Assembly (NCBI GenBank): GCA_025964625.1
Contig: JAOPYL010000325.1
Span: 1-32,773 of the forward strand
Direction of reading: 5' to 3'
Length of the DNA: 32,773 nucleotides
From: Actinoallomurus sp.
GTDB lineage: Bacteria > Actinomycetota > Actinomycetes > Streptosporangiales > Streptosporangiaceae
The notes beneath the pieces were generated by a model. The model searched no databases, was not told the DNA's origin, and saw only the letters and a program-made list of their open reading frames with translations. Made by a program: the position numbers and the translations under genes. Of the stretch, positions 1,776-14,627 are shown in pieces (positions within the stretch are counted from its first letter, which is position 1; the number at the start of each line of letters is the position of its first letter).

Positions 1776-2906
1776 TCACAGGCGAGACACCATGATGCCC
1801 GCGAGCAGCGCGGCCCGTTCGGCCAGGCTCGTGACCTGGATCGCCTCGTCGGCGGCGTGCGCGCCCCGGCCCCGTGGCCCGAAGCCGTCCAGGGTGGGCA
1901 GGCCGAGCGAACCGGGAAGGTTCGTGTCGCCGGCCCCGGCGGCGGGACGGCCGGTGATCTCCTGGCCGAGCAGTGCCCCCACCTCTGCGACACGGTCGAG
2001 CAGCGGGTCGTCGGCGCGCTCCGGCCAGGTGGGCCGGGTGGACAGCACGGTCGCCTCGACGACGGCGCCGGTCCGCCGGGGCGTCGCGCCGGTCAGCGCG
2101 CCGAGTACCTGCCGCTCGGCGGCGGCGGAGGTGAAACGGAGGCCGATCTCGGCGGACGCCTCCCCGGCGATGACGTTGGCCCGGCTGCCGCCCTGGATCC
2201 GGCCGACGTTGAACAACGTCGTGCCATCGTCCGGCACGGCGTCCCGCGCCGCCGCGACCTGGTCGATGAGCTCGTCGATGGCGGAGATCCCCTTGCCGGG
2301 GTCGAGCGCGGCGTGCGCTTCGCGCCCGTGGACCCGCACAAGGACCCGGGTGCTGCCCCGGCGCGCGCTCTTCAGCGCACCGTCCGGATGCGGCGACTCC
2401 AGGCCGAGCACGGCGACCGCGCCGTCGAGGTGCCGTTCGACCACCGCGCGCCCGGTCGGGCTGCCCACCTCCTCGTCGGCGACCACGACCAGGCGTACCT
2501 GCCGGGCGGGCGCGGCCCCGGCGGCGTGCAGCGCGCGCAGCGCCATCTCCACGGCGACCAGTCCGCTCTTCATGTCGTACGTCCCCGGGCCGGCGATGGT
2601 CGTGCCATCGTCGGTGTAGGGCATGGTGGCCAGCCGCCCGGCGGGCCAGACCGTGTCGTAGTGGCCGACCAGCAGCAGGTGCGGGCCGTCACCGGGGCCG
2701 AACCGGGTGACGAGATGACCGTCCTCGCGCGAGACGGCTCCGCCCGCCTCCACGTGGCCCGCCTCGATGAGCGCGGCGCAGCGTTCCAGCGCGGCGGCGT
2801 CCCCGGAGGGCGATTCGGCGAGGGCGTAGTCCCGGAGCCGCTCGCGGCCGAAGGGGAGCAGCCGGCCGGCGGCGGCGGTCAGGGCGGCGGAGAGGTCAGG
2901 TGTCAT
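1776..2906 (-). CDS. M20 family metallopeptidase / N-acyl-amino-acid deacylase (CPG2-like)
   Basis: This zinc-dependent hydrolase of the M20/M28 clan has 376 residues from the ATG at 2906. Visible metal-site segments are VGHYDTVWP (His, Asp), GPGTYDMKSG (bridging Asp), VVVADEEVGS (catalytic Glu pair) and a C-terminal GRGAHAADEA (His). The dimerisation domain sits in the middle. Relatives are glutamate carboxypeptidases and N-acyl-amino-acid hydrolases. An upstream in-frame ATG at 2948 exists, but the ATG at 2906 is preceded by AAAGGCGAC and starts at MTPDLSAAL, where the homologous region begins. It is divergent from a COG3375-type GNAT and close to an N-acylamino-acid racemase. In that company the likely job is removal of the succinyl (or other acyl) group from N-acyl-L-amino acids. 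The acyl specificity is inferred from context. Confidence 0.85.
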   Translation of the reverse strand: MTPDLSAALTAAAGRLLPFGRERLRDYALAESPSGDAAALERCAALIEAGHVEAGGAVSREDGHLVTRFGPGDGPHLLLVGHYDTVWPAGRLATMPYTDDGTTIAGPGTYDMKSGLVAVEMALRALHAAGAAPARQVRLVVVADEEVGSPTGRAVVERHLDGAVAVLGLESPHPDGALKSARRGSTRVLVRVHGREAHAALDPGKGISAIDELIDQVAAARDAVPDDGTTLFNVGRIQGGSRANVIAGEASAEIGLRFTSAAAERQVLGALTGATPRRTGAVVEATVLSTRPTWPERADDPLLDRVAEVGALLGQEITGRPAAGAGDTNLPGSLGLPTLDGFGPRGRGAHAADEAIQVTSLAERAALLAGIMVSRL

Positions 2907-2947
2907 GTCGCCTTTCATCGGCCGAGCACCGGCAGTGACATGCGCCA

Positions 2948-3796
2948 ATGCTACTAAACTTGCCCTGTCGCGATCGTTGTGCTCGTTCGAGCGTTCACTG
3001 TGAGAAGGAATTGGCGCCCTCTTCGACCATCACCGTACGGCCGCTGACCACCTCCGCCGAAATGCGGGCCGGGGTGGAGGCGTACCGTGCCGCGTTCGCC
3101 CTGTCGGCCACCGACCCGGCGGTCAGTCCCCGGCTGCTCGCCGCGCTTCAGCGCAACGCGGGCTCGGTGCTCGGCGCCTTCGCGGGAGACGAACTCGTGG
3201 GCTTCACCTATGGCTTCCTCGGCTCCGACTCCGGCAACTTCTACCACTACTCACAGGTGGCGGCGGTGCTGCCGGACTGGCAGGGCCGGGGCGTGGGGCG
3301 GACACTCAAGCTGAGCCAGCGCGACTACGTGCTGTCCACGGGCGTGACCGTGATGCGCTGGGCCTTCGACCCCGTACGCACCCGCAACGCCCACTTCAAC
3401 CTCGACGTGCTGGGCGCCACCGGCCGCTGGTTCACGCGCGACCTGTACGGCGTCGAGGACATCGGCCGCGACCAGGGGATGCGCACCGACCGGCTGATAG
3501 TCGAGTGGGACCTGCTCGGACCGCCGGTGCGGGACGTTCCACCTCCGCAGCACACCGGCTGGGGTGAGACGCGGCAGCAGAACGGCGACCTGTTGCTCGG
3601 GGTCCCGCGGGACTGGGAGGCACTGGTCGGCCGTGACCGCACCGCGGCGTTCCACCTGCGCGACGACCTGGCCACCGAGATGACCCGGCTGATCGGCGAG
3701 GGGTACACCGCGATCTCCTGCCAGACCTGCGACCCCTACACGGCCGTCTACCGCTTCCGGGCCGGGCGGCACCGCGAAGCGGGCGGCGACCGGTGA
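2948..3796 (+). CDS. GNAT N-acyltransferase, COG3375 type (candidate D-amino-acid N-succinyltransferase)
   Basis: The protein carries a GNAT fold of the COG3375 group: VGFTYGFLGSD, then the acyl-CoA binding segment LPDWQGRGVGRTLKLSQRDY, then MRWAFDPVRTRNAHFNLDVLG, which is characteristic of this family. In Geobacillus a COG3375 GNAT beside N-succinylamino-acid racemase transfers succinyl from succinyl-CoA to D-amino acids; I infer the same role here from family plus neighbours. The left boundary given is the longest frame (ATG 2948). Its first 22 residues do not look like GNAT sequence. The in-frame TTG at 3011, directly behind GAGAAGGA, may be the true start although the spacing is short. 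The gene diverges from the M20 peptidase and is followed after about 105 bases by the racemase on the same strand. Confidence 0.85.
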   Translation: MLLNLPCRDRCARSSVHCEKELAPSSTITVRPLTTSAEMRAGVEAYRAAFALSATDPAVSPRLLAALQRNAGSVLGAFAGDELVGFTYGFLGSDSGNFYHYSQVAAVLPDWQGRGVGRTLKLSQRDYVLSTGVTVMRWAFDPVRTRNAHFNLDVLGATGRWFTRDLYGVEDIGRDQGMRTDRLIVEWDLLGPPVRDVPPPQHTGWGETRQQNGDLLLGVPRDWEALVGRDRTAAFHLRDDLATEMTRLIGEGYTAISCQTCDPYTAVYRFRAGRHREAGGDR

Positions 3797-3901
3797 CCGT
3801 GCCGCCGCCCACGCCGGTGCTCGACCCGTTCGCCGGCGGACATTCGACCGCAGAGGTGGCACCGCCATGGTGTCCGACCTCGACGAGGAGGATTGAAACG
3901 C

Positions 3902-5008
3902 GTGCCGCGCGTATCCACGATTGAGGCGTTCCGGGTGAGCCTGCCGCTCGTGCACGCCTTCCAGACCAGCTCGCACCGCAAGTCGCACCTCGAGCACATC
4001 CTCGTCCGCGCGCAGGACGCCGACGGGACGGTCGGATGGGGCGAGATCGCCTCGCCCAGCGACCCCTACTACTGCCCGGAGACCGTGGACGGCTGCTGGC
4101 TGACGGTCGAGCGGTACCTCGCCCCGGCGCTCCTCGGGGCCGAGTGGGATCATCCCGCCGAGGTCGGTGCGCTCTGGGCGCGGGTCCGCGGCCACCACTT
4201 CGCGAAGGCGGGGCTCGACATCGCCTGCTGGGACCTGTGGTCGCGGTCGGCGGGCACGCCGCTGGCGCGGGCGCTCGGAGGTGACCGCATGACCATCTCG
4301 GCCGGCGTCAGCCTGGGCATCGAACCCACCGTGTCCGACCTGCTCGCCCAGGTCGACCGGTACACCGCGGAGGGGTACCGGCGCATCAAGCTGAAGATCG
4401 CCCCGGGCTGGGACGTGGAGCCGGTCCGCGCGGTGCGTGCGGCCCACCCGGACCTGGCCCTGCACGTCGACGCGAACGGCGCGTACACCGAGGAGCAGAC
4501 CGACGTCCTCGCCGAGCTGGACCACTTCGGCCTGACGATGATCGAGCAGCCGTACGCTCCCGGCGCCCTCGCCGCGCACGCCCGGCTGCAGAAGCGGATC
4601 GAGACGGCCGTCTGCCTCGATGAGTCCGTTGACGACCTCGACCAGCTCGACACGGCCCTCGAGCTGGGCTCCGGGCGCGTCCTCAACATCAAGGTCTCCC
4701 GGATGGGCGGGCTGACGGCGGCCCGCGCCGCGCACGACCGCGCGGTCGCCGGCGGCTGGCAGGTCTGGTGCGGGGGGATGCACGAGTTCGGGGTCGGCCG
4801 CGCCGCCAATGTCGCCATCGCCTCGCTGCCCGGCTTCACCCTGCCCAGCGACGTGTCCGGCTCGGACAAGTACTACACGCACGACGTCGTCGAGCCGTCC
4901 ATCCGGGCCATCGACGGCCAGGTCACGGTGCCCTCCGGGCCGGGCATCGGCCACGAGGTCGACGAGGCGCTCGTGCGCCGGCTCGCCTCGGCGACGCTGA
5001 AGTTCTGA
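3902..5008 (+). CDS. N-acylamino-acid racemase / o-succinylbenzoate synthase (enolase superfamily, NSAR/OSBS)
   Basis: This 368-residue enolase-superfamily member has all catalytic residues of the NSAR/OSBS subgroup in place: K163 and K165 in IKLKIAPGW, metal ligands D190 (HVDANGAY), E215 (MIEQPYAP) and D240 (CLDESVDD), and the opposing base K264 in NIKVSRMGG. The C-terminal WCGGMHEFGVGRAANVAIAS matches the same group. The start is set by ribosome binding: GAGGAGGA at 3884-3891 is 10 bases before the GTG at 3902, whereas the earlier TTG at 3893 is almost touching it. A 9-codon frame (ATG 3867 to TGA 3896) with its own AGAGGTGG upstream ends just before the start and may couple translation. 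No menaquinone genes are near; a GNAT, an M20 peptidase and a D-aminoacylase are, so racemisation of N-succinyl (N-acyl) amino acids is more likely than OSBS as the main role. Confidence 0.9.
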   Translation: MPRVSTIEAFRVSLPLVHAFQTSSHRKSHLEHILVRAQDADGTVGWGEIASPSDPYYCPETVDGCWLTVERYLAPALLGAEWDHPAEVGALWARVRGHHFAKAGLDIACWDLWSRSAGTPLARALGGDRMTISAGVSLGIEPTVSDLLAQVDRYTAEGYRRIKLKIAPGWDVEPVRAVRAAHPDLALHVDANGAYTEEQTDVLAELDHFGLTMIEQPYAPGALAAHARLQKRIETAVCLDESVDDLDQLDTALELGSGRVLNIKVSRMGGLTAARAAHDRAVAGGWQVWCGGMHEFGVGRAANVAIASLPGFTLPSDVSGSDKYYTHDVVEPSIRAIDGQVTVPSGPGIGHEVDEALVRRLASATLKF

Positions 5009-5010
5009 GC

Positions 5011-5045
5011 GGCCGGCGGCGACCTCGACCGCGTCGTCGCCGGCC
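5011..5045. terminator. Strong hairpin terminator between convergent genes
   Basis: A 13-bp stem, GGCCGGCGGCGAC with GTCGTCGCCGGCC (one G-T pair), closes the loop CTCGACCGC and begins 3 bases after the racemase stop. The permease gene converges from the right, so it can act in both directions. Confidence 0.7.
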
Positions 5046-5101
5046 GGGGGACCGGACGGCGACGTGCTCGCCCGCCGGCTCCTCCAGTGACTCACGCAAG
5101 G

Positions 5102-6517
5102 TCATGTCAGCATCCAGAAGAGCATGGCGAACAGGGCCGTGTTGGCCGTGATGATCGCCCAGCCGTTGAACAGCATCAGCCGCAGGCTACTCGACCGTGC
5201 CAGGCCCATCTGGCCGATCATGTCGGCGCCGGGAAGTGGACCGAGCTGGTCGACCTGGGAGGTGCCGACCAGGGCCACCGCCCACACGCCGGGCGCTATG
5301 CCGAGCGCGGCGGCCACCGGCCCGAACAGCTTGTTGACCACGACGACCTGGGCGACGGCGGCGCCCGGCACCGCTTGCATGTACCCGAGGAAGACGATCA
5401 GCATCAGGAACAGCCACGGCCCGACATCCGGGAGGATCGGCTTGAGGTCGGCGAACACCGTCTCGAAGGCGCCGGTCTTGTCGATCAGCGCGAGCATCGG
5501 GTCGAGCATCCAGAACAGCAGGAACAGCCAGATCAGCCGGGCGGCGCCGGCGTACACCGCCTCCAGGACCTTCTTGGGGGCCAGCCCGCCGGCCAGGCCG
5601 GTCGCGGCGGCGGTGACGATCATGACGATCAGCGCGTACGAGTAGGTGGCCTTCTCCACGACACCGTAGATCGCGAGGGCCAGCAGCACGAGGGCGAAGA
5701 CCAGCGCGGCCCGGCGGGCCGCTCCGTCGCCGGTCTGGGGCTCGGTCTCGGCCGCGTCCGCGGCGGTGTACTCCTGGTCGGTGTGGCGCTGGATCCAGCG
5801 CGCCATGAAGAAGCCCGTCACCATCGTCACCGCAGCGACCGGCAGCCCCGCGTGGAGCAGGTACCCGCCATAGCTCAGCCGCGTCGCCGCCATGAGTGTG
5901 ACGACGGGCGGGGTGAACGGGCCGGTCATCAGGCCGGCCGCTCCGGCGGCGTGCAGCATCGCCGCCACGGCGGGCGGCCGCCAGCCGGTTCGCGCCGCGA
6001 CCGGGATGACGATCGGCGCCAGGATCGCGTTCCCACCGGCCAGGGTGCCCAGCGCGCCCACGAGGATGAGCGAGGAGACCATGATGCCGAGCTGCACGCG
6101 GGTGCGTGTGTTGAGCCCGATCCCGCCCATCACCAACCGGATGAGCGACTGCGCCGCGCCCGTCTCCTGGGTCACCCGGCCGAGGCCCGCGCCGAGCAGG
6201 ATGATCATGCCGATGACGGCGACCAGCGACCCCATCGACGTCGCCATCTGGGCGCCGAGCGGGATCGGGCCGGTTCGCGTCATCACCGCCGCGATGACCA
6301 GCGCGCCGATGGTCGCCAGCACCACGTCCACGCCGAGCACCGCGAGCAGCGCGTACAGGCCGATCGGCACCAGCCCCCACAGGCCGGCCTTGCCGCCGGT
6401 CATCGCGAGCAGGATGCCGATGACCAACGCCACCGCGAAACCTCCGGCGGCGATCACGGGCGCGCGGCCGGCGTGTTTCTCCGCGGTCGCCGTCTCGGCG
6501 GCCGTCGTCGTACTCAT
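5102..6517 (-). CDS. Ion-transporter-superfamily permease (GntP/NhaC/CitMHS-like)
   Basis: This is a 471-residue, very hydrophobic protein with about 12 membrane segments arranged in two halves separated by a charged loop near residue 240 (RWIQRHTDQEYTAADAAE). The first half carries GIMVSSLILVGALGTLAGGN and the second LGYMQAVPGAAVAQVVVV. Paired glycine-rich hairpins of this kind are typical of the ion transporter superfamily (gluconate, citrate, Na+/H+ and short-chain acid carriers). It lies 14 bases behind the N-acyl-D-amino-acid deacylase on the same strand, with GAGGAG just before its ATG, so the two form an operon. Uptake of an N-acyl-amino acid or another organic anion is the natural guess. 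Substrate and coupling ion cannot be read from sequence. Confidence 0.75.
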   Translation of the reverse strand: MSTTTAAETATAEKHAGRAPVIAAGGFAVALVIGILLAMTGGKAGLWGLVPIGLYALLAVLGVDVVLATIGALVIAAVMTRTGPIPLGAQMATSMGSLVAVIGMIILLGAGLGRVTQETGAAQSLIRLVMGGIGLNTRTRVQLGIMVSSLILVGALGTLAGGNAILAPIVIPVAARTGWRPPAVAAMLHAAGAAGLMTGPFTPPVVTLMAATRLSYGGYLLHAGLPVAAVTMVTGFFMARWIQRHTDQEYTAADAAETEPQTGDGAARRAALVFALVLLALAIYGVVEKATYSYALIVMIVTAAATGLAGGLAPKKVLEAVYAGAARLIWLFLLFWMLDPMLALIDKTGAFETVFADLKPILPDVGPWLFLMLIVFLGYMQAVPGAAVAQVVVVNKLFGPVAAALGIAPGVWAVALVGTSQVDQLGPLPGADMIGQMGLARSSSLRLMLFNGWAIITANTALFAMLFWMLT

Positions 6518-6531
6518 CTGGGGGGTGCTCC

Positions 6532-8097
6532 TCAGGCTCCGTGTCGCCGGAGCACGCGCCCGGGACGTTTTCCGGTCAGGACCGCGTCACGCAGCACCGG
6601 AGTGCCGTTGACGACGACGTGGCGTACGCCCGCCGCCGGCTTCCAGGGGTCGTCGAAGGTGGAGGTGTCGACGACGGTGCGGGGGTCGAGGACGGCGAGG
6701 TCCGCCGCCAGCCCCTCGCGGACCTCGCCGCGGTCGGCCAGGCCGGCCCGTGACGCGGGCAGCGAGGTCATCTTCCGTACGGCGTCCGCGAGCGTGAGGA
6801 CCCCCCACTCGCGCACATAGCGCCCGAGTACCCGCGCGAACGTGCCGAAGCTGCGCGGATGCGGGCGCCCTCCGCCGGCCGGGCGCAGCACCCAGCCGTC
6901 ACTTGCCACGCCGACGTGCGGGTGTGACAGCACCGCGCGCACGTCGTCCTCGGACATCGCGTGGTCGACGATGCCGACCGAGCCGTGGTGTGCGGCGATG
7001 ACCTCCAGAGCCGTCTCGGCACCGCTCAGGCCGAGCTCGCCGCCGAGCTCGGCCAGGCTCCGCCCGATCCACGCGGAGTACGGCCCGGGTGGCAGTTCGG
7101 CGAGGACGACGGCGTCGGCGTCGATGTGCGTGCCGGCGGCGATCCGGCGTCTGGTCCCCGCGTCGGAGAGGCGTTCGAGCAGCCGCTCGACGCCGCCGTC
7201 CATCGCCCAGCCCGGCAGCCGCGACGTCAGCGTCGTGGAGGAGGCGGTGTAGGGGTAGACGTCCGCGGTGACGTCCACGCCCTGGGCGCGGGCCTCGTCG
7301 ATCAGCCGCAGGGCCTCGTGCACCCCCCCGTGGTTCGCCCGCCCCATCGCCTTCAGGTGGGAGATCTCCAGGCGTACGCCCGACTCGCGCGCCGTGGTCA
7401 GGGCCTCGGTGACGGCGTCGATCAGCCGGTCGGCCTCATTGCGCATGTGCGTGGAGTACAGCAGTCCGAGCCGTGCCGCGGCGCGGGCCAGCTCGGTCAC
7501 CTCGTGGGGCGGCGCGTAGCTGCCCGGGGCGTAGATCAGGCCGGTGGAGAAGCCCGCCACCCCCTCATCGGCGGCGCGCTCCAGCAGAACTCGCATCGCC
7601 GTGCGCTCTTCCGGCGTGGCCGGCCGCTCGTCACCGCCCACGGCGGCCATCCGCAGCGCGTTCAGCCCGACCTGCGCCACCAGGTTGACGGCCGGTTTGG
7701 AGCGTTCCACCACGGTGGCGTAGCCGTCGAAGCCGGTCCAGTCCCAGAGCAGCTCGTCCTCCATGAAGGCGGCGGAGCGGCGCAGGCTCTCCGGGTCGGC
7801 GACGGGGAAGGGGGAGAAGCCGCAGTTGCCACCGACCAGCGTCGTGACTCCCTGGTAAAGGCAGGTGTCCGCGCCGGGATGGCCCTGGATCGAGAAGTCC
7901 GCGTGGGAGTGCAGGTCGATGAAACCGGGTGCCACGACGTGGCCGGTGGCGTCCAGAGTCTCGGCCCCCGGCAGTGTCCCGGGGGCCGCGACGGCCGCGA
8001 TACGGTCGCCGCGCACGCCCACGTCGGCCGGCACGGCCGGCGAGCCGGTGCCGTCGAGCAGGTCCCCTCCGGTGACGACGAGATCGAACTCAGGCAT
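6532..8097 (-). CDS. N-acyl-D-amino-acid deacylase (D-aminoacylase family amidohydrolase)
   Basis: This 521-residue amidohydrolase has FIDLHSHADF (H63, H65) and VGGNCGF (C92), the Cys metal ligand that marks D-aminoacylases. It also has YSTHMRNEAD and EISHLKAMG with the two further His ligands and a late GVASDGWV aspartate, all in the order seen in Alcaligenes D-aminoacylase. The family hydrolyses N-acyl-D-amino acids to free D-amino acids and carboxylate. Start: GGAGGTGA lies 6 bases before the ATG at 8097 and touches the alternative GTG at 8103, so the ATG is preferred. It is first in an operon with the permease. Next to the racemase/GNAT/M20 set, the free D-amino acid it makes would be a substrate for inversion to the L form. 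Confidence 0.88.
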   Translation of the reverse strand: MPEFDLVVTGGDLLDGTGSPAVPADVGVRGDRIAAVAAPGTLPGAETLDATGHVVAPGFIDLHSHADFSIQGHPGADTCLYQGVTTLVGGNCGFSPFPVADPESLRRSAAFMEDELLWDWTGFDGYATVVERSKPAVNLVAQVGLNALRMAAVGGDERPATPEERTAMRVLLERAADEGVAGFSTGLIYAPGSYAPPHEVTELARAAARLGLLYSTHMRNEADRLIDAVTEALTTARESGVRLEISHLKAMGRANHGGVHEALRLIDEARAQGVDVTADVYPYTASSTTLTSRLPGWAMDGGVERLLERLSDAGTRRRIAAGTHIDADAVVLAELPPGPYSAWIGRSLAELGGELGLSGAETALEVIAAHHGSVGIVDHAMSEDDVRAVLSHPHVGVASDGWVLRPAGGGRPHPRSFGTFARVLGRYVREWGVLTLADAVRKMTSLPASRAGLADRGEVREGLAADLAVLDPRTVVDTSTFDDPWKPAAGVRHVVVNGTPVLRDAVLTGKRPGRVLRRHGA

Positions 8098-8243
8098 CCG
8101 CACTCACCTCCGGTCGCGTACAGGTTCCAGGACGCTCGCCGGTCACGCGCCGCCGGCGTGCGGCGGGCGCCCGGGCGCCGGCGAGCGGCGGGGGTCGCCG
8201 CGGACGCCCGGCGGCCCGGCCGGCGTCGGACCCGCTTTCGCCG

Positions 8244-9149
8244 TCACGACGGCGAAGGGTCGTCGACCGGCAATCTACCTGCAGTTTCGATGTGCTCGCC
8301 GATGAGGCGGGCGATGGTCACCGGGTCGGTGAGCGGCACCCAGTGCGGTGCCCGGACCGGCCGCACCGTCAGCTCGGCGGTGAACGGCCGGGCCGCCTCG
8401 GCCGCCAGCCTCGGCGTCACGAAGGCGTCACGGGTCGCGACGACGACCTGCGTGGGCACGTTCGTGCGGCGCTCGCCCGGGTCGCGTCGACGGCCGCGCA
8501 TGTTGGCGCGGTAGAGGTTCACTCCGGCCGCCGCGTCCTGCGCGAGCGTGGGCGCGGGATGAGCGCCGCCGGCCGGCACGCCTTCGGTGCGCTCCAGCAG
8601 CCTTCCCCAGCGGCGGCCCAGGAGGCCCCGCCAGACCAGCTCGGGCAGCACCGGCGTGTGGAAGGCGGCGATGTACCAGGAGTGGAGCATCTGCCGCGCG
8701 ACCGCGGGCACTCCGGAGGTGCGCCGGAGTCCCGCCCGGATCCAGTGCGCGGCGTGGTCGAGGCAGGGGCCGGAGATCGAGGTGAAGGTGGCGAACCGCT
8801 CCGGCATCGCGCAGACCGCCTCCCAGGACTGGATCGACCCCCAGTCGTGCCCGGCGAGGTGCACGGGCGCGTCCGGGCTCACCGCGTCGAGCACCGCCCG
8901 CATGTCGGCCACGAGGTGCTCGAACCGGTACGCCTCGCGGCTCCGCGGGCGCGACGACGCGCCCGCCCCGCGGACGTCGTAGGTCACCACGTGGAACCGC
9001 CCGGCCAGCCGCCCGGCCACGGCGTCCCAGACGGCATGCGTGTCCGGGTACCCGTGTACGAGCAGCAGGGTGGGACCTTGACCTCGCTCATAGACGGCCA
9101 GGTCGACGCCGTCTCCGCGAACGCGCCGCGAACTCACTTCGTTGGACAT
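8244..9149 (-). CDS. Alpha/beta hydrolase, epoxide-hydrolase-like
   Basis: From the ATG at 9149 this is a 301-residue alpha/beta hydrolase. The oxyanion-hole motif HGYPDTHAVWD is followed by the nucleophile elbow LAGHDWGSIQSW. Asp in HDWG is the nucleophile of epoxide hydrolases and haloalkane dehalogenases. A later Asp lies in VVATRDAFVTP and the triad His in APHWVPL. The frame stays open further upstream, but that part is not hydrolase-like. There is no clear Shine-Dalgarno; a CATAAAT sequence lies 11-17 bases before the ATG, which fits a leaderless transcript. A palindrome covers the start codon (see 9142-9158). The gene lies upstream of the deacylase operon on the same strand with a 146-base gap, so co-transcription is possible. 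Substrate unknown. Confidence 0.8.
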   Translation of the reverse strand: MSNEVSSRRVRGDGVDLAVYERGQGPTLLLVHGYPDTHAVWDAVAGRLAGRFHVVTYDVRGAGASSRPRSREAYRFEHLVADMRAVLDAVSPDAPVHLAGHDWGSIQSWEAVCAMPERFATFTSISGPCLDHAAHWIRAGLRRTSGVPAVARQMLHSWYIAAFHTPVLPELVWRGLLGRRWGRLLERTEGVPAGGAHPAPTLAQDAAAGVNLYRANMRGRRRDPGERRTNVPTQVVVATRDAFVTPRLAAEAARPFTAELTVRPVRAPHWVPLTDPVTIARLIGEHIETAGRLPVDDPSPS

Positions 9150-9158
9150 GCGGTCCAA
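9142..9158. promoter_or_regulatory. Palindrome over the hydrolase start codon (candidate operator)
   Basis: On the minus strand TTGGACCGCATGTCCAA is a perfect inverted repeat, TTGGAC-N5-GTCCAA, with the start codon inside the spacer. The position just behind a possible -10 (CATAAAT) would let a TetR-type or similar repressor block transcription. No regulator gene for it is visible nearby. Confidence 0.4.
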
Positions 9159-9187
9159 TTTATGCCGTGGGCCGGGCGGGGGCGCGC

Positions 9188-10231
9188 TTACGGACGGTCG
9201 CCGAACTGGATGTTCAGGCTGCGCAGGTAGGTGTGCAGTCCGGCGTCCTGCACGGGGATCAGGTGCGCGTCGCGGCCCGACTCGTTGTAGTGGGCATGCC
9301 ACTTGCCCGGCGGCGTGACGAAGGCGCCTCCCGGCTCCCAGTCCACCCGCACCGGGTCGACGATGTCGCCGTGCTCGTCGAGCCGGTCGCCGAGCAGGGT
9401 GTAGCAGCCGGGCGGGCAGTCGAGGATCAGATCGAGGGCGACCGACTGATGCCGGTGCGGACGCTGATCCTGACCCGCGGGAAGCACTCCGAACATCGCC
9501 CACAGCACGTGGGTGATGGTCAGGGTCTGCTCCTCTTCGGCGTTGGCGAGCAGGACGCTGACCCTGCTCTTCTCGCCGGCGTCGGGCTGCGACGCGATCC
9601 GCTCCAGCTCGGCGACCGCGTCGGCACGCGCGAACTTCGTCGGGCGGAACCGGGGCCGGGTGGCCTCCGCGCCGAGATAGCGCAGCAGCGGCTCGTCGTG
9701 CACCCAGTACATGACGGTGTCGTGGGCCGCGTGATGGGTGCTGCGGCTGCCGGCCGGAAGGGTGACGAAGTCCCCCTTCTCCCAGCGGATCATTCGCCCG
9801 TTCACGTCGGAGTACCCTGCGCCCTCCATCACGTAGTAGAGCTCGGACGTCGCGTTGGGGTCGGTCGCCACCCGATCACCCGCGTTGATTCGGACGAAGT
9901 TGGCCAGCAGGGCGGGGCTGGTCGCCGCGCCGCCCTTGACGCCCAGGTGCTCCGACAGGTCCAGCGGGATGACGCGGGTCGGCCCCCCGGCGTACAGCTC
10001 GGGGCTGAACCGCTCGATCGGTACAGGCGGCGTGTGACCGCTGGCGATGGGGTCGGCCGCCTTGGAGTACTCGAAGAAGCGGGCGTCCTGCGACCAGTCC
10101 TCGAAACGCCCCTCGAAACCGTAGTCGGCGACGTTCACCTCGGGCGCCGCGACGGTCGGATCGAATCGCTTGTCGTCCTTCTTGGTCCTGGTCAGCTTCT
10201 CCTTCAGGTTCTCCTTCAGGCGTGCGGGCAT
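9188..10231 (-). CDS. Two-cupin protein, gentisate 1,2-dioxygenase-like
   Basis: This 347-residue bicupin has an N-terminal cupin with SELYYVMEGAGYSDVNG and GDFVTLPAGSRSTHHA, and a C-terminal cupin with QRPHRHQSVALDLILDC, GGAFVTPPGKWHAHYNES and the ending DAGLHTYLRSLNIQFG. The family includes gentisate and 1-hydroxy-2-naphthoate dioxygenases, which use Fe(II) to open aromatic rings. The start is the ATG at 10231: GAGGAGG at 10238-10244 is 6 bases upstream, against 3 for the GTG at 10234. The N-terminus is lysine-rich (KENLKEKLTRTKKDDKR). No other aromatic degradation genes are in view, so the true ring substrate is open. The gap to the hydrolase downstream is 38 bases on the same strand, so the two may be co-transcribed. 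Confidence 0.7.
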   Translation of the reverse strand: MPARLKENLKEKLTRTKKDDKRFDPTVAAPEVNVADYGFEGRFEDWSQDARFFEYSKAADPIASGHTPPVPIERFSPELYAGGPTRVIPLDLSEHLGVKGGAATSPALLANFVRINAGDRVATDPNATSELYYVMEGAGYSDVNGRMIRWEKGDFVTLPAGSRSTHHAAHDTVMYWVHDEPLLRYLGAEATRPRFRPTKFARADAVAELERIASQPDAGEKSRVSVLLANAEEEQTLTITHVLWAMFGVLPAGQDQRPHRHQSVALDLILDCPPGCYTLLGDRLDEHGDIVDPVRVDWEPGGAFVTPPGKWHAHYNESGRDAHLIPVQDAGLHTYLRSLNIQFGDRP

Positions 10232-10270
10232 CACTGCCTCCTCTTATGGCGGTGTCGTGAGCCGACGTTC

Positions 10271-10383
10271 CATATGAGCCGGCCGTGGTGCACGGCGGTG
10301 CACGGCGGTGCCCGACGCGAACGCGCGGTCGGTACGGAGCCGCCTGTCCGCGGCGGACCGGAGACTCCTGTCACATCATATGA
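10271..10383. promoter_or_regulatory. Intergenic region with CATATGA repeats and a GTCCGC palindrome
   Basis: The gap between the bicupin gene and the fdhD stop holds CATATGA at 10271-10277 and again at 10377-10383 (there within the palindrome TCATATGA), two tandem copies of GGTGCACGGC near 10290, and an inverted repeat GTCCGC-G-GCGGAC at 10346-10358. These may be control sites of the bicupin gene and/or a terminator for fdhD. None is assignable to a known regulator. Confidence 0.3.
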
Positions 10384-10422
10384 CCTGCGGGAACACGGTA
10401 AGCGGACACTGACGCCGAGTCG

Positions 10423-11265
10423 TCAGGTGCGCGGCGTTCCGCCGTCCGGGTCATCGGCCGGGTCGAGTCGCTCGGTTCCGGCATAGACGTTCATCGACGG
10501 GCCGCGCAGGAAGCCGACGAGCGTCATCCCGGCCTCCTCGGCCAGCTCGGCCGCCAGCGATGACGGAGCCGACACGGCGGCCAGTGCCGGGATGCCGGCC
10601 AGCAGCGCCTTCTGGGTGAGCTCGAACGACGCCCGGCCGCTGACGAGGAGCACGTGTCCGGTCAGGGGTACGCGCTTGTCCTTCAGTGCCCAGCCGACCA
10701 CCTTGTCGACCGCGTTGTGCCGCCCGACGTCCTCCCGGAGGACCAGCAGCCTCCCCGCCGCGTCGAACAGCCCCGCGGCGTGCAGTCCGCCGGTCCGCTC
10801 GAAGACCCGCTGGGCCGCTCGCAGCGTTTCGGGCAGCAGCGTCAGCACCGCCGGGTCGAAAAGGGTCCTGTCCTCGCGCACGTCGTACGACGTGCGCTGC
10901 CGGATCGCGTCGATGCTCGTCTTGCCGCACACGCCGCACGCGCTGGTCGTGTAGAAGGACCGCTCGACCGAGACCTCCGGCGGTCGCACGCCCTCGGCGA
11001 GTGTCACGTCGACGATGTTGAACGTGTCGGTGTCCGCGCAGTAACGCATCGCCGCGATGTCGTCCGCCGCACGGACGACGCCCTCGCCGTGGAGGAACCC
11101 GGTGACGAGGTCGAAGTCGTTCCCCGGCGTGCGCATGGTCACCGACAGCGGCCGCCCCGACAGCCGTATCTCCAGCGGCTCCTCCACCACGAGCGTGTCA
11201 GGGAGCGTTCGTCTCCCTCTTTCGTCGATATGCGCGATCCGACGTCGTACGGTCACTCGGCCCAT
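10423..11265 (-). CDS. fdhD: Formate dehydrogenase accessory sulfurtransferase FdhD
   Basis: This 280-residue FdhD passes sulfur from a cysteine desulfurase to the Mo-bisMGD cofactor, without which formate dehydrogenase is inactive. Diagnostic segments are VEEPLEIRLSG, TPGNDFDLVTGFLHGEG, the conserved cysteine loop SACGVCGKTS, and LREDVGRHNAVDKVVGWAL followed by LLVSGRASFE. The ATG at 11265 (MGRVTVRRRIAHID) is chosen because the frame upstream of it is not FdhD-like. It diverges from the formate dehydrogenase operon it serves; the 140-base gap between them must carry both promoters. It is cytoplasmic and works on the FDH catalytic subunit. Confidence 0.95.
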   Translation of the reverse strand: MGRVTVRRRIAHIDERGRRTLPDTLVVEEPLEIRLSGRPLSVTMRTPGNDFDLVTGFLHGEGVVRAADDIAAMRYCADTDTFNIVDVTLAEGVRPPEVSVERSFYTTSACGVCGKTSIDAIRQRTSYDVREDRTLFDPAVLTLLPETLRAAQRVFERTGGLHAAGLFDAAGRLLVLREDVGRHNAVDKVVGWALKDKRVPLTGHVLLVSGRASFELTQKALLAGIPALAAVSAPSSLAAELAEEAGMTLVGFLRGPSMNVYAGTERLDPADDPDGGTPRT

Positions 11266-11405
11266 GGCCCCGACGTTATCGCCGCCGGCCGTCCGGAATC
11301 CCGCCCGCCCGGCATGCCGCGCCGTACCGGCGCGCTCCGCGGTCGGCTCATCGCGCCACGCCGGATTCACGCGAAAGTGGCACGATCATTAGCAAAGACG
11401 GTTGA

Positions 11406-14400
11406 ATGGCGCGCGTGGGTATTGAGTCTTGGCCGGTTCTCCGCCAGCTGACCGGCACCGATCGGCTCGGCCGTGGCGAGGCCGCGCGATCGAAACGCAC
11501 GGACGCGCTCGTGGCGCGTACCGAGCAGGCCGACCGGGTCGTCTCCTCGGTCTGCCCGTACTGCGCCGTCGGTTGCGGGCAGAAGGTGTACGTCAAGGAC
11601 GAGAAGGTCATCCAGATCGAGGGCGACCCCGAGTCCCCGATCTCGCGCGGGCGGCTGTGCCCGAAGGGCTCGGCCAGCAAGCAGCTCGTCACGTCGCCGG
11701 GCCGGCAGACGACAGTCCTCTACCGCCGGCCGTACGGCACGGAGTGGGAACCGCTCGCCCTCGACGACGCCATGGACATGATCGCCGACAGGGTGATCGA
11801 GGCCCGGCGGCAGGGCTGGGAGGACACCTCCGGCGGCAAGCCCGTGCGCCGCACCATGGGGATCGCGAGCCTGGGCGGGGCCACGCTCGACAATGAGGAG
11901 AACTACCTCATCAAGAAGTTCTGGAGCGCGCTCGGAGCGATCCAGATCGAGAACCAGGCCCGTATTTGACACTCCGCCACCGTCCCCGGTCTGGGGACCA
12001 GCTTCGGACGTGGCGGCGCCACCGGGTTCCAGCAGGATCTCGTCAACGCCGACTGCATCGTCATCCAGGGCTCGAACATGGCCGAGTGCCATCCGGTGGG
12101 GTTCCAGTGGGTGATGGAGGCCAAGGCGCGCGGTGCCAAGGTCTTCCACATCGACCCGCGGTTCACACGTACGAGTGCGGTGGCCCACCGTCACGTGCCC
12201 GTCCGCGCCGGCAGTGACATCGTCCTGCTCGGCGCGCTCGTCAACCACGTGCTGAGCGGCGGCCACGACTTCCGGGACTACGTCCTCAACTACACCAACG
12301 CCGCGGCCATCATCAACGAGGACTTCAAGGACACCGAGGACCTCGACGGGCTCTTCTCCGGGTACGACCCCGAGAAACGTGAGTACAACCCCACCACGTG
12401 GGGGTACGACAGTGCCTCCGAGGAGCCCGCGAGCGGCCGGCGCGACGAGTCCAGCAGGGCGCCGGACCTGAGCGCCGGGGACCTCTCCCACGAACACGGC
12501 CCCGGCGCGACGTACGAGGCGACCCCGTCGCAGACCGGGCGGGCCCCGTACCGTGACGACACCCTGGAACACCCGCGCTGCGTCTACCAGGTGCTGAAGC
12601 GGCACTTCGCGCGGTACACGCCGGAGCTGGTCGAGGACGTGTGCGGCATCTCCCCGGCGGATTTCGGCGAGATCGCGGAGGCGATCGTCGCCAACTCGGG
12701 ACGGGAGCGCACGACCGCGTTCGTCTACAGCGTCGGCTGGACGCAGCACACCGTCGGCGCGCAGTACATCCGCACCGCCTCGATCCTGCAGCTCCTGCTC
12801 GGCAACATCGGGCGGCCCGGCGGCGGCATCCTGGCGTTGCGCGGGCACGCCAGCATTCAGGGTTCGACCGACATCCCCACCCTGTACAACCTGCTGCCCG
12901 GCTACCTTCCGATGCCGTACGCGCACGAGCACGAGGATCTGGACACCTATCTGGAGCGGGCGGCCGGCGACACCGGCTTCTGGGGCAACAAGCGCGCCTA
13001 CATGGTGAGCCTGCTCAAGGCCTGGTGGGGCGACGCCGCCACCGAGGACAACGACTTCTGCTTCGACTACCTGCCCCGCCTGACCGGCGACCACGGCACG
13101 TACCAGACCGTGCTCGACCAGATCGCCGGCAAGGTCAAGGGATACTTCCTGATGGGGGAGAACCCGGCCGTCGGATCGGCGGGCGGCCGGATGCAGCGTC
13201 AGGGCCTCGCCTCAGTCGACTGGCTGGTGGTCCGCGACCTCAACCTCATCGAGAGCGCGACGTTCTGGAAGGACTCTCCCGAGATCGCCTCCGGTGAGAC
13301 GACGGCCGAGGAGATCGGCACGGAGGTCTTCTTCCTGCCCGCCGCGTCGCATGTGGAGAAGGGCGGCACCTTCACCAACACGCAGCGGCTGCTGCAGTGG
13401 CATCACAAGGCGCTGGAGCCGCCGGCCGACGCACGCAGCGACCTGTGGTTCATGTACCACCTGGGCCTGCGCATCCGGGAAAGGCTCAGCGGTTCGGCGG
13501 ACCCCATCGACCGGCCCGTCCTCGACCTCACGTGGGACTATCCGGAGGAAGGTCCGCAGCGGGACCCGTCCGCGGCGGCGGTGCTGAAGGAGATCAACGG
13601 CTACGACGCCGACGGGAACACCCTCTCCGGGTTCACCGCGCTGAAAGACGACGGCACGACCGCCTGCGGCTGCTGGATCTACTCCGGTAGCTATGCCGAC
13701 GACGTCAACCAGACCGCGCGCCGCAAGCCGGGCGCGGAGCAGTCCTGGGTGGCGCCCGAATGGGGCTGGGCGTGGCCGGCCAACCGGCGCATCCTGTACA
13801 ACCGCGCCTCGGCCGACCCCGAAGGCCGGCCGTGGAGTGACCGCAAGGCCTACGTCTGGTGGGACGGCGAGCAGTGGACCGGGCACGACGTGCCGGACTT
13901 CGAGAAGAAGAAGCCGCCGTCGTACGTCCCGCCGCCGGACGCCAAGGCCCAGGACGCGATCGGCGGCGCCGACCCGTTCATCATGCAGACCGACGGCAAG
14001 GGCTGGCTGTTCGTGCCGAAGGGACTCGTGGACGGGCCGCTCCCGGCGCACTACGAGCCCCATGAGTCGCCGGTGGACAACCCGCTGTACGGCCAGCAGA
14101 CCAACCCGGTGCGGCAGGTCTTCCCGCGCAAGGGAAACCGCTACAACCCGGTGGGCGGTGAGGTCTTCCCGTACGCCTTCACCACCTACCGGCTGACCGA
14201 GCACCACACGGCGGGCGGCATGAGCCGTTTCCTGCCGTACCTGTCCGAGCTGCAGCCGGAGATGTTCTGCGAGGTATCGCCGGCACTGGCCGCCGAGCGC
14301 GGGCTCGTCAACGGCGGCTGGGCGACGATCATCACCGCACGGACCGCGATCGAGGCCCGCGTGCTCGTCACCGACCGGATCCGGCCGCTGCGGATCCGGG

Positions 14401-14627
14401 GCCGCACGGTCCACCAGATCGGGCTGCCCTATCACTGGGGCAGTGCCGGGATCGTGCGCGGTGACTCGGCCAACGACCTGCTGCCGATCGTGCTCGACGC
14501 GAACACCCATATTCAGGAGAGCAAGGCGGCGACCTGCGACATCCGGCCGGGGCGCCGCCCGCAGGGCGCCGCGCTGCCGGCCCTCGTGCGCCGCTACCGC
14601 CGCATCGCGGGGATACCAGAGGATTGA
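11406..14627 (+). CDS. Formate dehydrogenase catalytic subunit, selenoprotein (Sec188 at in-frame TGA)
   Basis: This is the Mo/W-bisMGD catalytic subunit of a formate dehydrogenase, 1073 residues counting one in-frame TGA at 11967-11969 as selenocysteine (residue 188). The N-terminal [4Fe-4S] site is C50, C53, C57 and C85 (SVCPYCAVGCG, RGRLCPKG). Around the TGA the frame reads NQARI-U-HSATVPGLGTSFGRGG, exactly where the Cys/Sec metal ligand of this family lies, and conserved FDH sequence continues in the same frame to 14627. Later landmarks are GENPAVGSAGG and SHVEKGGTFTNTQRLLQWHH. A SECIS hairpin follows the TGA. No twin-arginine signal is evident, so an inward-facing complex is likely. The ATG at 11406 lacks a good ribosome site; the GTG at 11415 is an alternative. 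The beta subunit start overlaps the stop. A standard gene caller would split this gene into two or trim it. Confidence 0.95.
11967..12016 (+). promoter_or_regulatory. Bacterial SECIS element for selenocysteine insertion
   Basis: Directly after the TGA, the outer stem CCGCCAC (11974-11980) pairs with GTGGCGG (12010-12016). The inner stem GTCCCC (11982-11987) pairs with GGGGAC (11993-11998), closing the apical loop GGTCT (11988-11992). The loop starts 18 nt after the TGA. In E. coli fdhF the SelB-binding loop is also GGUCU and, as I recall that sequence, is at the same distance. The element lies inside the coding region, as is normal in bacteria. Confidence 0.9.

Follow-up and report, generated by a model that had tools for sequence, protein, structure and literature searches.

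Gene content and organisation of the Actinoallomurus locus

The window analysed here is the whole of a 32,773-nt stretch from Actinoallomurus sp. (assembly GCA_025964625.1, contig JAOPYL010000325.1, positions 1–32,773 of the forward strand), in which neighbouring genes encode an M20 metallohydrolase, a GNAT-family N-acyltransferase, a racemase of the N-succinylamino acid racemase/o-succinylbenzoate synthase (NSAR/OSBS) family, a permease and a D-aminoacylase-family amidohydrolase (hereafter aminoacylase). The open reading frame (ORF) list, Pfam and NCBIfam confirmed all five where a preliminary description of this DNA had placed them (Table 1). We read the locus as an actinobacterial D-amino acid assimilation cluster, in which an NSAR-type inversion core is combined with a detachable aminoacylase–permease entry branch, and hold this reading to be probable at roughly two chances in three. 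The single operon proposed earlier is contradicted by the strands, which run −, +, +, −, − across M20, GNAT, racemase, permease and aminoacylase; the genes therefore form three units, namely M20 alone (−), GNAT–racemase (+), which is divergent from M20, and aminoacylase–permease (−), which is convergent to the racemase and has a gap of 14 bp between its two genes.

Table 1 Coordinates, strands and probable starts of the features discussed.
Feature	Coordinates	Strand	Remarks
M20 metallohydrolase ORF	1776–2948	−	probable start ATG 2906, gene 1776..2906
M20–GNAT intergenic region	2907..3010		divergent; presumed shared promoter region
GNAT N-acyltransferase ORF	2948–3796	+	probable start TTG 3011, gene 3011..3796
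NSAR/OSBS-family racemase ORF	3893–5008	+	probable start GTG 3902, gene 3902..5008
Permease, DctM/CitMHS-like ion-transporter type	5102–6517	−	Pfam PF06808
D-aminoacylase-family amidohydrolase	6532–8097	−	listed ORF 6532–8103; probable start ATG 8097, GTG 8103 also possible

Relatives support the starts of the core genes: same-genus M20 proteins align with the window ORF from residue 15 in four of seven cases and from residue 10 or 13 in the rest, in two relatives a stop codon precedes the point matching the GNAT start and a TTG stands at the equivalent place in loci L088, L089 and L090, and three same-genus relatives begin at the proposed first residue of the racemase in an alignment of 17 racemases of the window type. 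No obvious conserved operator was seen in the M20–GNAT intergenic region when seven Actinoallomurus-type sequences were aligned and judged by eye.

Predicted functions of the core and entry-branch enzymes

The nearest solved structure of the racemase is the N-acylamino acid racemase 1sja (E 6e-88), presumably from Amycolatopsis, and the other near structures are also N-acylamino acid racemases. Alignment to 1sja, for which we take the lysine pair to be K163/K263 and the metal ligands D189/E214/D239, places lysines K166, K168 and K267 and metal ligands D193, E218 and D243 in the window racemase. R270 corresponds to R266 of 1sja, a residue tied to NSAR activity, at which the structure 7s8w differs from 1sja in the structure alignment; F323 and I293 of 1sja are replaced by Tyr and His, respectively. 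Measured against this crystallised NSAR, the earlier claim that all catalytic residues are kept thus stands for the lysines, the metal ligands and the R266 equivalent. Among the 17 aligned racemases the lysines and R270 are kept in 16; the exception is the most distant, L065, which lacks the equivalents of K267 and R270 and beside which neither a GNAT nor an M20 gene lies. A dipeptide epimerase was set aside since such enzymes carry a DxD motif at a place where the window racemase has WCGGM, the same as NSARs.

The racemase also matches TIGR01928 (297.8 bits, cut-off 200.65), an equivalog named o-succinylbenzoate synthase (menC), which would make it a plain menaquinone OSBS in an incidental neighbourhood. 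The preliminary description had itself named an OSBS-only racemase, with a menaquinone operon lacking another menC, as an outcome that would speak against it. That outcome does not apply here: the same genome carries a menB–menC–menD cluster on another contig (C359, locus L079), with menB and menD above their model cut-offs and a dedicated menC of the actinobacterial PRK02901-type OSBS (430.9 bits, cut-off 288), and the window racemase was accordingly rejected as the sole MenC of this organism. With the NSAR residues kept and OSBS supplied by the separate menBCD cluster, a role restricted to OSBS is unlikely. Three further close racemase homologues are present in the genome (L039, L040 and L041), two scoring over the TIGR01928 cut-off and one below it. 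The one on contig C298 adjoins a GNAT gene of its own.

The GNAT matches PF00583. No significantly related solved structure was found by sequence search and profile search gave weak matches, while its AlphaFold model (mean predicted local distance difference test (pLDDT) score 95) shows a GNAT fold followed by an extra C-terminal portion. A profile of window-type GNATs, run against an 18-protein set, matches the NSAR-linked GNATs of Lysinibacillus, a Streptomyces plasmid and D. radiodurans with E-values below 1e-37, and we propose that the enzyme may be a D-amino acid N-succinyl/acetyl transferase. The M20 protein matches PF01546/PF07687, has carboxypeptidase G2 as its nearest solved structure (E 6e-17), reaches the cut-off of none of the 25 NCBIfam models shown and is related (33%) to its M20 counterpart in the Streptomyces plasmid cluster; it is a candidate L-specific N-acyl (N-succinyl) amino acid hydrolase.

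The aminoacylase matches PF07969 and aligns best with the D-aminoacylase structure 1m7j (E 3.8e-89). D-Aminoacylases use a metal and catalytic set made up of HxH, Cys, His, His and Asp, and residues H65, H67, C94, H219, H249 and D402 of the window protein (counted from GTG 8103) stand opposite the H/H/C/H/H/D of 1m7j. The permease scores 39.3 bits with its Pfam family (cut-off 23.8) and has no NCBIfam match; it is a putative importer of N-acyl-D-amino acids or short peptides.

Conservation of the core and exchange of its modules

The neighbourhood was surveyed around the best 80 of 251 racemase loci from named genomes, scanned with the 17-racemase alignment. The 251 loci were found through two peptide patterns drawn from window-type racemases, so the percentages hold for the best-80 set only. 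Within at most 10 kb of flank, a gene was called present from tblastn matches (E 1e-10) to queries taken from six loci and to two sequences of a SIS-domain gene described below; 13 of the loci have <3 kb upstream or <6 kb downstream, leaving 67 with enough flank. Neighbour clusters were built by single-linkage blastp on ORFs called with a simple picker, and some were named from one or two representatives each. Stretches from same-genus genomes and canonical-type NSAR loci were mapped as well; 12 of the 80 survey loci appear to come from the same genomes as loci of this mapping, and the two surveys are therefore not independent.

The core is conserved, with M20 in 75/80 loci and GNAT in 78/80, and M20 is divergent from GNAT–racemase in 71 of the 74 loci that hold both. 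This linkage stands against an incidental neighbourhood and, together with the separate menBCD cluster, makes a plain menaquinone OSBS very improbable despite the name of TIGR01928. The aminoacylase is linked in 31 loci from 12 genera (within 5 kb in 29), accompanied by a permease homologue in 26, and the co-occurrence survey suggested in the preliminary description found all five genes, together with the SIS gene, in 24. Assuming five such genes per 8.5-Mb genome, our own arithmetic gives chance linkage in about 1 in 100 loci or fewer, and since 29 of 80 were seen within 5 kb, aminoacylase–racemase clustering exceeds chance. Another module replaces it elsewhere: an M19 dipeptidase is present in 13 loci, coincides with the aminoacylase in one and, among the 67 loci with enough flank, is found in 13, against 29 for the aminoacylase. 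The M19 loci also hold genes assigned, by cluster representatives, to a peptide-binding protein (12/13), an S12 hydrolase (10), a C39-like peptidase (9) and an S66 LD-carboxypeptidase (6). As aminoacylase, permease, M19 dipeptidase or neither module occur across the 80 loci, the entry branch is no artefact: it recurs and can be exchanged.

On an 81-row racemase tree presence of the aminoacylase switches 11 times (supported branches force at least 9 of these; shuffled mean 25.2; the fragmentary aminoacylase of L126 counted as lacking), and linkage has been gained or lost repeatedly. Racemase and aminoacylase distances correlate among the linked loci (r 0.84, n = 31), which fits long shared inheritance; distances of GNAT, M20, SIS protein and permease correlate with those of the racemase as well (r 0.75–0.87). 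Within the genus, M20, GNAT and racemase are kept in 7/7 stretches, and in one of these (L044) only 26 bp separate the ends of the matches to the racemase and to an alpha/beta hydrolase that is located past the aminoacylase in the window. Actinomadura xylanilytica (L094, on the same contig as G334) has the same five-gene order as the window, and the arrangement is therefore likely to be old, with loss in sister species. The five-part set is thus shared with relatives rather than confined to this genome.

Two observations concern the surroundings of these modules. At L122:11903-13825, amid peptide transport and peptidase genes, an M19 dipeptidase ORF carries a C-terminal class-I glutamine amidotransferase-like domain. 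A class A beta-lactamase-fold protein, perhaps a peptide hydrolase, adjoins the aminoacylase–permease pair in L094, L095, L096, L097 (11179-11994), L099, L101 and L103, which belong to Actinomadura and one Pseudonocardia.

Canonical-type NSAR loci, ~42–47% identical, carry an amidohydrolase of the aminoacylase family in five of the nine mapped (L056, L072, L073, L077 and L078), loci that were partly chosen because both genes are listed close together; L054, L055, L057 and L058 have no such amidohydrolase in the stretch. L072 also encodes an M55 D-aminopeptidase, an oligopeptide:H+ symporter neighbours the Lysinibacillus NSAR locus, and the Streptomyces plasmid has a tight co-directional amidohydrolase–M20–GNAT–NSAR run.

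In most relatives the core contains a further gene, not mentioned in the preliminary description, which encodes an RpiR-like SIS-domain protein of ~230 residues lacking the helix-turn-helix (HTH) domain (for example L139:6101-6754; no HTH found by Pfam in the four members scanned). It is present in 69/80 loci, lying exactly between GNAT and racemase in 57 and elsewhere in 10, with no GNAT found in the other two, and is absent from 11, including all 6 of the Actinoallomurus clade; the window's own genome has no such gene at E 1e-6. Among solved structures the protein (model pLDDT 87) comes closest to the SIS domain of the RpiR regulator 3sho, and similarity to HxlB and MurR is weak. At the place where sugar isomerases carry the phosphate-binding motif SxSGxT, the SIS consensus has DVLVAFSLRRYRRET; the 32 aligned rows show an RRY- or RY-type segment there, in which one R and the Y never vary. 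The protein may have an amino-acid-sensing or accessory role.

The SIS gene also bears on whether the cluster might act on amino-sugar acids or some other N-acyl substrate, the SIS protein of relatives then being a sugar-related enzyme or sensor. Its frequency and its resemblance to HxlB and MurR would fit, as would the presence of PpOngB and a carbohydrate de-N-acetylated protein among the structural relatives of the amidohydrolase. The consensus at the phosphate-binding place and the lack of the gene in the window's genome argue the other way, as does the absence of any kinase or sugar gene among the ten neighbour proteins scanned, which are part of the neighbour clusters, and we regard such substrates as improbable. 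A broader proposal treats the locus as a reduced version of a modular actinobacterial system not described before, which would assimilate D-amino acids from acylated or cell-wall-derived peptides and would combine a conserved divergent M20 / GNAT–SIS–racemase core, whose HTH-less RpiR-like SIS protein would sense or handle the amino acid substrate and not a sugar phosphate, with exchangeable import-and-release modules. We advance it tentatively, at somewhat short of even odds.

The MocR gene at 281–1699, which had been described as flanking the cluster, was rejected as its regulator. It matches NF052290 (YczR; 615.6 bits, cut-off 487.4), and the divergent ORF 1–178 (−) at the left edge of the window is the N-terminus of a YczE-like protein, whose corresponding full-length ORF in a same-genus locus scores 254.2 (cut-off 205); the gene therefore belongs to a yczR/yczE pair. 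A MocR match is present in 4/7 same-genus stretches and elsewhere among the mapped loci only as one partial match (L067). On the other side, positions 8244–14627 encode the alpha/beta hydrolase, a gentisate-dioxygenase-like cupin, FdhD and a long ORF taken for a putative formate dehydrogenase; the hydrolase, FdhD and the long ORF are matched in 4/7 same-genus stretches.

Proposed route and its relation to known systems

The data above show the gene content, the homologies, the conserved catalytic residues, the recurrent linkage with its repeated gain or loss, and an independent OSBS; in the following scheme we infer every substrate, stereochemistry, transport direction and mode of regulation. 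The permease would import an N-acyl-D-amino acid (or L,D-dipeptide), from which the aminoacylase would release the D-amino acid; the GNAT would N-acylate the free D-amino acid with succinyl- or acetyl-CoA, the enolase-superfamily racemase would interconvert N-acyl-D and N-acyl-L enantiomers, and hydrolysis of the N-acyl-L form by the M20 enzyme would make net D-to-L conversion irreversible. In relatives the entry branch is replaced by peptide-transport genes and an M19 dipeptidase, or neither is found. The preliminary description had proposed a complete route of this kind; its NSAR-type core and entry branch gain support from the recurrent aminoacylase linkage, the M19 replacement and the OSBS encoded elsewhere, while its single operon and its link to MocR fall away.

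The NSAR pathway of Geobacillus kaustophilus, reportedly described by Sakai and co-workers in 2006, is said to comprise three genes, for a GNAT, an NSAR and an L-desuccinylase. The same three activities are predicted here and the racemase is homologous; with the Lysinibacillus triad as a proxy the GNAT is homologous too, whereas the window M20 belongs to another subfamily, the gene order is divergent, and the aminoacylase–permease pair is added. The proposed acylation, racemisation and L-hydrolysis steps are modelled on the published pathway (Sakai et al. 2006); a review (PMC8762209) states that the GNAT of that pathway makes N-acetyl-D- and N-succinyl-D-Phe, -Tyr or -Trp. Canonical-type NSAR clusters of other actinobacteria (for example a plasmid of Streptomyces sp. 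NBC_00257, and L072 and L073) likewise hold amidohydrolase, GNAT and racemase close together, and in NBC_00257 M20 too, but their proteins are ~31–47% identical to those of the window and they have a PucR-type regulator, peptide ABC or MFS transport and serine hydrolases. In the DgcN–DgcA D-glutamate pathway, N-acylation by an enzyme of another family than GNAT is followed by an enolase-superfamily racemase. The window racemase differs from DgcA, scoring 106.8 with the model NF042940 (cut-off 400). Excerpts of two papers present that pathway as an irreversible D-to-L conversion route (PMC12363236, PMC10845958). NSAR has also been paired with a stereospecific D- or L-acylase in industrial tandems; those in the sections of PMC7431475 consulted are man-made, with purified enzymes or recombinant cells, whereas the window would hold both proposed acylase types in one natural locus. 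NSAR pathways and artificial NSAR/acylase tandems are thus already known; a natural linkage of NSAR to an aminoacylase, dipeptidase or SIS gene was not found described in the open-licence PubMed Central (PMC) literature.

Several points weigh against the D-amino acid assimilation reading, beginning with the menC-named model that the racemase matches. The M20 protein is carboxypeptidase-G2-like and has no blastp match at E 0.01 to the M20 of the Lysinibacillus triad, which exceeds the TIGR01891 cut-off with 269 bits where the window protein scores 35.1. The aminoacylase falls under the cut-off of its best NCBIfam model, PRK09061 (229 vs 340), the carbohydrate de-N-acetylated protein among its structural relatives is 9kb3, and the permease substrate is putative. 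In the flank covered, 49/80 loci are without the aminoacylase and 37/80 without either module. The aminoacylase and permease are in 0/7 of the same-genus core stretches fetched, and one of those seven genomes (G002) has an aminoacylase–permease pair, 80–82% identical, elsewhere with no core nearby. Moreover, deacylation followed by re-acylation would have no obvious purpose, as NSARs accept many N-acyl groups according to part of PMC7431475.

An alternative is a direct route, in which a promiscuous NSAR would racemise the imported N-acyl-D-amino acid as it is and the M20 enzyme would hydrolyse the product, leaving the aminoacylase as a D-specific clean-up enzyme and the GNAT for free D-amino acids only. 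The same source, in the sections consulted, reports N-acetyl, N-formyl and N-carbamoyl substrates for NSARs and the use of an engineered G291D/F323Y Amycolatopsis NSAR with an N-acetyl substrate (PMC7431475), and the window racemase has Tyr at the F323 place. Such a route would leave the repeated linkage of an aminoacylase or M19 dipeptidase, both of which would free D-amino acids, without a reason, and we hold it to be rather unlikely. A stronger contender, which we nonetheless rate as doubtful on balance, is that in the cell the entry branch takes up L,D-dipeptides derived from cell-wall peptides rather than N-acyl-D-amino acids, the aminoacylase acting as an L-Xaa-D-Xaa dipeptidase. The loci in which an M19 dipeptidase, peptide-binding protein, S12 hydrolases and in some cases an S66 LD-carboxypeptidase stand instead would fit this. 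Members of the aminoacylase and M19 families (Sco4986 and Sco3058) cleave L-Xaa-D-Xaa; no confirming paper was found in the open-licence literature. Against this, the permease is of an ion-transporter type and no known peptide transporter, the dipeptidase activity of the aminoacylase is putative, and the family labels of the neighbours come from one or two representatives per cluster.

For the D-amino acid assimilation reading, the wider meaning lies in annotation and physiology. Racemases of the window type match TIGR01928 and stand as menC in the annotated records examined. Their conserved surroundings, made up of genes for an acyltransferase, a hydrolase and enzymes that release D-amino acids, would set this label right for many actinobacteria and would indicate a widespread route for D-amino acids. 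With the SIS-domain gene, the idea that a sugar-isomerase-type domain can work in amino acid metabolism becomes open to testing, and biocatalysis would profit from a natural locus that joins an NSAR to proposed D- and L-specific acylases.

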